Positions 51,001 through 54,000 of a stretch of DNA of 64,000 nt are shown here, piece after piece. This DNA is from Ecdyonurus torrentis (lineage: Eukaryota; Arthropoda; Insecta; Ephemeroptera; Heptageniidae): NCBI GenBank assembly GCA_949318235.1, contig OX439130.1:35789085-35853084 (forward strand), given 5' to 3'. The first letter of the stretch is position 1. Every line of letters starts with the position of its first letter. The translations under genes were made by a program, and so were the position numbers. Below the pieces are notes generated by a model. The model saw only the letters and a list, made by a program, of their open reading frames with translations, searched no databases and was not told the DNA's origin.

Positions 51001-54000
51001 TAATAACAAACACATCTGTGATAGCAAGATTTTCACCAAACTAGGGAATTCAATATGCCTATGCCTAATAGGTGTAAGGCCTTTCCTGATTTTTACCCAT
51101 CCTTTCCTTTCAAATTTATCAGACCTAGCCAATGTGGTTTATTTTCCATTATATCTCTTATTCACAAAGAATTATTATTGTTGTTGTTATTTTGCTTCTT
51201 GCTTGTTAATAGTTGATATTCATATTTTACAGCTTAAACTACAATCAAATTGAAACAAGAATGCTAATAGTTTTATAATTGCTTGAGATTTAGCATCAAA
51301 ATATTCTGTCAAAGTGTATAATACTTGCATTGTTTCCTCTTTATTGCAAAAATAATTACGTTTAAAAAAATAATTAGAAAATAGTTGGTAGAGATTAGAG
51401 CACGTTGAATTGAAAATTAATAAAACGCGAAAATTCTCTAATTTAAATAGTAAATTGGGACTAGGGATGCAAATCATTATAGCTTGCGCTAAATAAAAAT
51501 AGATGTTAAAAGGGATGAGGGGCATAGTGTCAATGTAAAATACGATATACCTAACATCTCACGTTCTCACAGTACATCAAAGGCACAACATTATAAAACA
51601 GTACCAGACTTACTCTTGGCCTTAGACCGGTTTCGTCCTTTACCTAGGACTCATCAGTAAGGCTCGGCAGAGAGCTCTGTACAGCTAGAGATGGCTCACA
51701 CCACATCTGCTAACTGACTGAGCTGAGGAAGCAAGTGGCAGCCGCGTTTTTATACGCGATGCCCCCGCAGCTGCTCGCGCTGATTGGTTGAACAATCGCG
51801 CGCGCAAACCCAGCTTGCTATTTAAAACCTCTCATCCTCACACTGTAATATAATATTGTGCACTTTGTAAGAGGGATGCAAGACTGGCTGCCAGCAAGCC
51901 ACATGTGCCCTCCCTCACTTCCTAGAGTTCCCCAACTCCAGAAAGTTCGCGTGAGCAATGCGCCTGCCGGCCGCCTGTATCGTGATTAAGCTAGTTACAT
52001 CGTTTAATATATTGACACCGGGGTAGGAAAAGTAAAAAAGATGATAGAAATAGGAGAGATAGGTTAAAAATATATGCGCTTTGGCATATTTTTAATTTAA
52101 TTAATTTGGTACGTGCTCTTATTGGCGTTGGCAAGTAAAAAGGGCGGAGAATACAATATAAATGAAAGAATCTTATTTACAAAAGCTTAAATATTAAAAC
52201 AAAAAGATCGACATTGCGATAAATATAATATATAGGAAAAAACCATCGCGGTTGGATGGTTGGAATTTTCAATTCAACGTGCTCTAATCTCTACCAACTA
52301 TTTTCTAATTATTTTTTTAAACGTAATTAATACGAACCGCGATGGTTTTTTCCTATATATTATATTTATCGCAATGTCGGTCTTTATTGCAAAATAAAGA
52401 TAAAGTTTTTGTTTTGTTTTATGTTAATTGTAATTAATTATTTACATATTTCAGAATGCACTGCTGCTGATAGCCCCTGAAGTGAATTTGACAGTGAAGT
52501 GTCCTTCACCTCGGGAGCGTGCTGAGTGGCTGCAAGCAACACAGACTGCCATAAAAATCTGCTTGAGGAAACCTCACTTGCCAGCCCCTCCCTCTGCCAG
52601 AAATGTCTCTTACACGTTCACCAAGCATATTCTCTACAAGGCAGCAACTTACTCAGGTTTGTTCGCAAATATATTGTCTGATAGCTGCTTGCTCAGAGAC
52701 TAATTGGAACAATTGTGGAAATAAAGGCTGCTTAATAAGAAATATTGACGTACCTGCAGTGCTGTACTACCACGTTCTTAATATTTTTATGTTGTCATTT
52801 TTGTGTATATACAAGTATTGCTGTTGATTTCACAATTTACTCCCATTTTTACCTTTGGTTCAAAGTATCAATAACCATGAAATATCTCTTTAACCCAAAT
52901 TAAATGTTCATGCTGATGTTTAGGTCGTTGGGTCCAAGGTTTAACAGAGGGGCCAGGTCGCATGGAGTGGCCTGATGGAAAAGTCTATACAGGAGGATTT
53001 CACAATGGATATTTGCATGGCAAAGGACGCCAGACCTACCCTGATGGCAGCTACTATGAGGGACAGTGGGCAGATGGCTTTCAAAATGGATATGGAATAG
53101 AAAAGTAATTCTTTTTTCGTTTTTATCTTGTTTTTCATTAGTAATTCAATGAGTTAAATGTGAGTTTTTTGTTAGAAAAAAATATTTATGTTGCTAAAAG
53201 TGTGTAAAACCATTGAAATTTTGATAACAGTAAAATAGTTTGCTTAAATCGACTACAAATGTACATATACGTCCCCAGGTCTGCAAGAGGGGATGTTTAC
53301 GAGGGTCACTTCCTTCATGGACAAAGGCATGGACATGGAGTACGTAAGGAGGGACAGTTCATGTCATCAGCAGCTTCAGTTTATGTCGGAGAGTGGATTG
53401 TTGGGCGCAGACAAGGTTATGGAGTCTCAGATGAGATTAGTACAGGTGAGTGACAATAGTAGAAAATCATATTTTTCTATTTCATTAAACATGCACTGAA
53501 ATATTTTCCATCTTATGTATTATATGTAGTCAACTTTGATACCAGTAAAGTGCTTTTAAAATGCATGTACTTATACTTTTAAATAAAACAAAATAATTTC
53601 AACTTGATTTTGTATGAAATGTAACAACTTGAACTAATTGACTATGTGAAACAGGAGAGAAGTATCTTGGTCTCTGGTCGAATGATGCCAAGCACGGGTG
53701 TGGTATGGTCGTCACATTGGATGGCATTTACTACGAGGGAAACTTTACAAACGGAAATCTTACAGTAAGTAGTCGGCCAGTTGAAAATTTTTTAGATCCT
53801 TTAAATTAAATATTAAACCATGCATATTCGACTTAGATAAGTATATGGATAAATCAGTGATTATAGTGATTATAAAAGCATTAATGTTTTAGGCTATTTG
53901 GCTGAAAATTATTTATTCATTTTTTGCCTTCACCAGTCCTTTCAGACTCAGAGAGAAATGCATATTGATGTAATCACTAATGACTAGAAACCTGATTTTT

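Follow-up and report, generated by a model that had tools for sequence, protein, structure and literature searches.

Why should an intron of a mayfly ALS2 gene carry a hammerhead ribozyme, and on the strand opposite to the gene? The question is posed by contig OX439130.1 of Ecdyonurus torrentis (assembly GCA_949318235.1), of which we analysed a stretch of 64,000 nt, here called the window (contig positions 35,789,085 to 35,853,084; coordinates below are those of the window). The ribozyme, at 51619..51663 on the minus strand, lies inside a retroelement insertion that spans 51352-52380 and is flanked by a 14-bp target site duplication (TSD), TCTTTATTGCAAAA. We consider it probable that this insertion is a non-autonomous Penelope-type retroelement without an open reading frame (ORF), with a unit of ~0.9 kb that combines a minimal type I hammerhead with an RNA polymerase II (Pol II)-like promoter, and that it is mobilised in trans. 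The features that speak for this can be read directly from the sequence: the ribozyme itself, inverted ends, a tail on one side only, the TSD, a tail shared with a second insertion in the same gene, promoter motifs, and no recognisable ORF.

A minimal hammerhead antisense to ALS2

The motif reads, in minus-strand order from 51663 to 51619, GCCUUA (stem I), CUGAUGA, GUCC-(8 nt)-GGAC, GAA, ACCGGU, C and UAAGGC. All the core bases of a hammerhead are present (CUGANGA ... GAA, the A15.1-U16.1 pair and H17), stem I is open, and the cleavage position predicted from the motif lies between C 51625 and U 51624. Stem I has 6 bp (GCCUUA/UAAGGC) and stem II has 4 bp (GUCC/GGAC), which one U-A pair could lengthen. 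The initial annotation, made from the sequence alone, had described this core and these helices on this strand, and the description holds: the Rfam model RF00163 (Hammerhead_1) aligns from end to end (model positions 1-45) with 51619-51663 minus, at 30.0 bits and an E-value of 7.7e-4 for a search of 21,001 bases against 4227 families. The likeness to RF00163 extends to all core bases and to stems I and II; the difference is in stem III. This had been put down as only CC/GG within the palindrome ACCGGU. The palindrome is indeed all there is of it, but with A15.1-U16.1 counted in the helix stem III becomes ACC/GGU, 3 bp with a loop of zero. Closure as a hairpin is impossible, and two copies can pair over 6 bp.

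Could such a motif arise by chance? A structural scan of both strands of the window (core and stems I-III, G-U pairs allowed) found one match, the present hammerhead; without the structural constraints, the pattern CTGANGA...GAAA has 8 occurrences. In its loose form, the structural motif should appear by chance 0.003 times per 64 kb (138 matches in 2.976 Gb of simulated first-order Markov sequence; the scan additionally demanded A15.1-U16.1), and the strict motif about 1.3e-7 times per window, by an analytic estimate from base composition for a motif form chosen post hoc. On both expectations we reject a chance motif at this locus. The earlier statement that chance is negligible is thus sound for the strict motif in the window; it does not carry over to loose hammerhead-like motifs across a large genome, where some would turn up by chance.

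With no hairpin to close stem III, how might the ribozyme fold? Pairing probabilities were computed for the monomer in five sequence contexts of 45 to 202 nt. In all five, the probability of stem II is 0.99-1.0 and that of the five outer stem I pairs 0.80-1.0. It drops to 0.27-0.29 for the innermost pair of stem I, because the predicted partner of C3, U4 and G5 is the stem III segment (0.93-0.98). The monomer is therefore predicted to be mostly misfolded at its core. The minimum-energy dimer of the 45-mer, in contrast, is a double hammerhead, in which ACCGGU pairs with ACCGGU over 6 bp as a common stem III; both stems I are predicted to form between the strands, and the third helix exists only between two molecules. 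Dimer-assisted cleavage, as proposed in the initial annotation, is thus what the folding predictions would favour. The gain is small (-31.9 kcal/mol for the dimer against -29.4 for two separate monomers), and the dimer would therefore need tandem copies, a high local concentration or the help of a protein in the cell. For the hammerhead of an Anolis Penelope element, cleavage was not seen unless protein was added (PMC11167929).

A splice-donor-like hexamer stands close by. GTAAGT (51608..51613, minus), a perfect donor hexamer, starts at the 12th nt past the cleavage site and adjoins the predicted outer extension of stem I; splicing from it and cleavage by the ribozyme might compete.

The host gene is read from the plus strand. 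In a search with an ALS2 exon, the best of the 120 matches listed (of 147) is 78% identical, and none of those listed is from a close named species. RCC1 repeats lie at 46.6-48.2 kb (above the profile cut-off; an alsin-specific RCC1 model stays below its own), MORN repeats at 52.9 kb and a VPS9 domain at 60.3 kb. The pleckstrin homology (PH)-like domain of alsin is found in two parts, 50353-50658 (profile positions 11-74, above cut-off) and 52434-52700 (positions 72-110, below cut-off), and the ribozyme-bearing element lies antisense in the intron that divides them. The antisense placement in ALS2 given in the initial annotation is thus upheld by domain matches on one strand and the ribozyme on the other. 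Being on the opposite strand, the ribozyme would not be contained in the ALS2 pre-mRNA, so that, as had also been anticipated, no cutting of this RNA is expected.

Anatomy of the insertion and of a neighbouring element

The interval 51352-52380 had already been named in the initial annotation as a place to look for RNA products, and TSD mapping makes these coordinates the outer limits of the insertion. The two copies of TCTTTATTGCAAAA lie at 51338..51351 and 52381..52394; an extra A (51352) stands before the inverted copy, and the right boundary is uncertain within 5 nt (the TCTTT of the right TSD would also fit the unit right after the tail, with one mismatch before it). Most of the insertion is an inverted, apparently complete unit of 901 nt without an ORF (51353..52253, minus), whose first bases, from 52253, are the tail motif and which stops at 51353 just ahead of the next tail start. 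A filler of 10 nt (52254..52263) separates it, head to head, from a short direct copy on the plus strand (52264..52380) in which the tail follows the final 71 nt of the unit. The left inverted-repeat arm (51353..51418, minus; 66 nt) is 100% complementary to 52264-52329 and represents the unit end without a tail. The right end runs on for 5 nt beyond the inverted repeat into a tail of 46 nt (52335..52380, plus) that begins AACCGCGATGGTTTTTTCC; the tail motif is also present inverted at 52253-52235. In the right direct copy the unit end is joined to the tail start, from which we infer a tandem or circular RNA template.

On the ribozyme strand the order of features within the unit is tail start (52253), an AT-rich stretch, a G+C-rich stretch, a CCAAT-box-like motif (51783..51787, read from 51787), a TATA box TATAAAA (51748..51754, read from 51754), initiator-like TCAG motifs (51714..51726, starting at 51726, 51721 and 51717), the cut (51625/51624), GTAAGT (from 51613) and the unit end (51353). 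The candidates for A+1 in the initiators lie 30, 35 and 39 nt from the TATA start. CCAAT, TATA and initiator motifs stand 162, 129 and 90-100 nt ahead of the cut, which is itself ~270 nt from the unit end. Both strands of the window together hold a single CCAAT-TATA-TCAGT pattern and two of TATA-TCAGT alone.

Is this an autonomous element? A tblastn search of 51352-52380 with 15 Penelope-type proteins found no coding remnant (best E 7), and the element is hence filed as a non-autonomous derivative: the ORF with a telomerase-like reverse transcriptase (RT) and a GIY-YIG endonuclease that defines autonomous Penelope-like elements was not recognised in it. No intact tRNA-derived part was detected either, ARAGORN reporting 0 tRNA genes across the window. 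Compared with its shuffles, the unit RNA is the more structured (z -3.61; 0 of 20 equally stable). A second, partial copy of the element lies at 63886..64000 (minus), 90.6% identical to 51383-51499; it ends at the window edge before the ribozyme region.

The layout of the ends is that of Penelope. Published Penelope insertions have inverted pseudo-long terminal repeats (pLTRs), an optional 31-bp tail at the 3' end of one pLTR, TSDs of 8-10 bp, and a TATA box and initiator in the pLTR (PMC3846280). In Anolis, the Penelope enzyme cuts and extends both target strands in vitro and begins reverse transcription at two internal positions that bound the tail of 30-40 bp; a hammerhead is present there too (PMC11167929). 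The present insertion has the inverted terminal copies, the one-sided tail, which at 46 nt is slightly longer than the published 30-40 or 31 nt, and a short TSD, albeit of 14 bp against the published 8-10 bp.

A second insertion of this layout lies ~5 kb away, within ALS2 too. At 57587..60140 (plus) an inverted copy without a tail on the left faces a direct copy with a 31-nt tail on the right, between 15-bp TSDs, TATTGCAAATTTAAG. The inverted copy 57587-58573 matches 59120-60106 at 986 of 987 positions (blastn gives 992 nt, 99.8%). The direct copy is 5'-truncated and contains an ORF (58590..59744, plus, stop to stop) that, judged via its homologues, comprises what follows the RT catalytic core, together with a GIY-YIG-like region; the RT catalytic part is missing. 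At E <=0.001 there are 15 homologues of this ORF, of which the three nearest are 75-83% identical and the nearest named one, from Schistocerca, 40%; no source labels any of them Penelope. A Pfam scan covered four of the 15. In P0008 it found RVT_1 (7.7e-7; 29.5 bits, cut-off 29.6) and GIY-YIG (0.17), in P0002 a weak RVT_1 (0.014), in P0012 GIY-YIG (1.9e-5, above cut-off) and in P0001 only an unrelated domain of unknown function. PF26215 (precomputed) is carried by 12 of the 15. The ORF itself has no Pfam match at E 0.1 (one unrelated match at 0.42), and the best match in a search of PDB sequences with its alignment had an E-value of 0.67. An AlphaFold model was of low confidence (mean pLDDT, the predicted local distance difference test, 68.0; pTM, the predicted template modelling score, 0.42) and was not used for any conclusion. 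We call this insertion putatively Penelope-type, since the aligned family appears to join RT and GIY-YIG parts and the insertion has the corresponding layout.

What links the two insertions is the tail. The first 20 nt of the neighbour's tail (60110..60140, plus; 31 nt) are identical to those of the hammerhead element's tail, and the gap between inverted copy and tail is likewise short, 3 nt in the neighbour and 5 nt in the ribozyme element. A search of the window for the 19-nt tail motif with up to 3 mismatches gave three matches, all of them exact (two in the ribozyme element, one in the neighbour); 0 of 100 shuffles contained it. The TSDs of both insertions contain TATTGCAAA, and among 100,000 pairs of stretches drawn at random from the window 96 share a 9-mer or longer, so that a common target preference is suggested, not proven. 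Exact-pattern scans of viral contigs with the ribozyme and tail patterns found 0 matches, and a search of viral contigs with the neighbour ORF gave 2 pattern matches, neither of them a relative. The 19-nt tail pattern is also found exactly in 8 prokaryote genome records, of which 6 belong to Rhodobacteraceae judging from title or genus; this clustering suggests an unrelated stretch of bacterial genes.

Origin and mobility of the ribozyme element

How would an element of this kind move? The unit would be transcribed from its own CCAAT/TATA/initiator promoter, or via tandem copies. Two hammerheads would then meet in cis or in trans and pair through ACCGGU, so that both could cut; cleavage would trim a leader of 90-100 nt or reduce multimers to units. 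Mobilisation in trans is proposed because the ribozyme element shares its tail with the neighbour yet shows no ORF: a Penelope protein supplied in trans would recognise the tail region and cut both strands of an AT-rich target. Reverse transcription may begin internally at two sites, ~51 nt apart in the ribozyme element and 34 nt apart in the neighbour, with one cDNA made per target strand. A cDNA begun just before the tail would give the left inverted copy, and one begun after the tail the short direct copy on the right. The ends of both insertions would fit such a use of two RT start sites on two target strands. Self-priming is discussed as an alternative origin of the inverted repeats in Penelope (PMC3846280).

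Several systems described before resemble parts of this one. Poseidon of Anolis carolinensis (Penelope/Poseidon clade; PMC11167929) is alike in having a minimal hammerhead upstream of the RT start, a tail and an AT-rich target. It differs in that its cut lies 26 nt and its RT start 111-118 nt into the ORF, whereas here the unit has no RT or endonuclease ORF and the cut lies ~270 nt from the end of the unit. Pen2a_Av of Adineta vaga (PMC3846280) is alike in its inverted pLTR, the 31-bp tail on one pLTR, the TSD (9 bp there) and the TATA box with initiator; unlike the ribozyme element, it carries an ORF of 842 aa, and the word hammerhead is absent from that paper. Certain Penelopes of heliconiine butterflies resemble the ribozyme element in being short and non-autonomous (PMC6685494, which has 0 mentions of hammerheads). 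More generally, minimal type I hammerheads are reported in Penelope pLTRs, with thousands more dispersed in animals (PMC7761336; PMC7229834), the motif being carried by nontelomeric Penelopes (PMC6431247), and their role in Penelope is called unknown in PMC7761336. Movement of non-autonomous hammerhead elements by Penelope enzymes has been proposed (PMC7761336; PMC7229834), the available texts giving no demonstrated case.

As hammerhead Penelopes and short non-autonomous Penelopes are both published, the kind of element is already known. What this locus adds is the presence, within one gene, of a Penelope-type element and a hammerhead element without ORF that agree in the first 20 nt of the tail and in end geometry and have similar targets. 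The literature searched contained no description as such of a Penelope-tailed hammerhead unit that lacks an ORF and has promoter motifs. The original reports on Penelope hammerheads (Cervera and de la Pena 2014; Lunse et al. 2017) may already cover one. The two insertions are a concrete pair for testing trans-mobilisation. If the proposed origin is true, the junction of unit end and tail implies a multimeric or circular template, and the long-suspected partnership of Penelope and hammerhead becomes directly testable with this pair. Whether the hammerhead element drives its own transcription, parasitises the Penelope machinery via the shared tail and so links Penelopes with animal retrozymes is a nearly even question, on which we lean very slightly towards no.

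A number of points weigh against a trans-mobilised Penelope-type element with a working ribozyme. The Rfam score falls short of the RF00163 gathering score of 34, and the 64-kb window holds zero matches at gathering level; the initial annotation would have had the ribozyme rejected on a covariance score below threshold, and formally this is the outcome. We do not take the cut-off as decisive because Penelope hammerheads are described as minimal, without helix III or loop-loop contacts (PMC7761336). The call of a Pol II-like promoter is a tentative one based on motifs. The cDNA passes through the ribozyme site, so the template must have been uncut or religated there, and mutation of the Anolis ribozyme left insertion in vitro unaffected (PMC11167929); the ribozyme may thus matter little for the insertion step. 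The 10-nt filler at 52254..52263 is unexplained, the TSDs (14 and 15 bp) and the 46-nt tail exceed the published lengths, the window contains one complete copy of the hammerhead element, and the left boundary of the partial copy (63886), at CAGTTGGTAGAG, lies ~30 nt inside the end of the first. Outside the tail, the ribozyme element and the neighbour have no blastn match at E 0.01. A hammerhead in the neighbour was sought in the 396-nt 3' region of its coding strand and rejected: its score of 18 does not exceed that of random sequence, since 300 windows drawn at random score up to 20 with a median of 17 and the real ribozyme reaches 23, and none of 4 Rfam matches at E 10 was a hammerhead. The two insertions accordingly represent distinct families, and the partner may be an element other than this neighbour.

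The alternative that fares best is that the insertion is a solo pLTR, or an internally deleted copy, of an ordinary hammerhead Penelope whose ORF-bearing full-length version lies elsewhere in the genome. Solo pLTRs, inverted pLTRs and a pLTR with TATA box and initiator are all described (PMC3846280), and hammerheads sit in pLTRs or at the border of pLTR and ORF (PMC11167929; PMC7761336). Against it, the 901-nt inverted copy is a complete unit, extending from a tail start and stopping just short of the following one, with a tail, promoter motifs and no recognisable ORF; the 90.6% identical partial copy at 63886 also speaks against it, though it stops short of the informative part. We regard this origin as unlikely.

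The initial annotation had named Penelope elements and animal retrozymes together, and the locus separates them: inverted ends, a one-sided tail, a TSD and a nearby element with the same tail all point to Penelope. A canonical animal non-LTR (long terminal repeat) retrozyme would be a short tandem unit producing circular RNA. Such retrozymes are alike in non-autonomy, type I hammerhead and structured RNA (PMC7229834); the absence of a detected ORF and a TSD above 4 bp fit as well, and retrozymes are themselves proposed to employ Penelope machinery (PMC7229834). They differ in having tandem units of 150-450 nt and canonical hammerheads, and retrozymes of animals and plants are described as seemingly promoterless (PMC7761336), whereas here the unit is ~900 nt, the ribozyme is minimal, there is no tandem array at the locus and promoter motifs are present; later abstracts do report a promoter in a plant retrozyme. 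On unit size and ribozyme type we reject this class as highly improbable. A DNA transposon or miniature inverted-repeat transposable element (MITE), with the hammerhead as a passenger or chance motif, could claim the 66-bp perfect inverted ends and the further inverted-repeat elements in the window, but deserves hardly any credence in view of the asymmetric ends with their one-sided tail and the 14-bp TSD, on which we reject it, the same layout in the Penelope-type insertion 5 kb away, and the expectation of ~1e-7 strict ribozyme motifs per window.

Other features of the window

Three further features lie well upstream. At 1893-4413 there is a long palindrome of ~2.5 kb, whose matching pieces are 98.6-100% identical and which is either a fold-back element or an assembly artefact. 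An inverted-repeat element at 31769-32972 has CAGGGTGTC near its ends and TA-rich flanks and is putatively mariner- or MITE-like. An exon-like ORF on the plus strand (36203-36643) has a weak match to the N-terminal domain of dipeptidyl peptidase (DPP) IV (PF00930, E 0.008, below cut-off).

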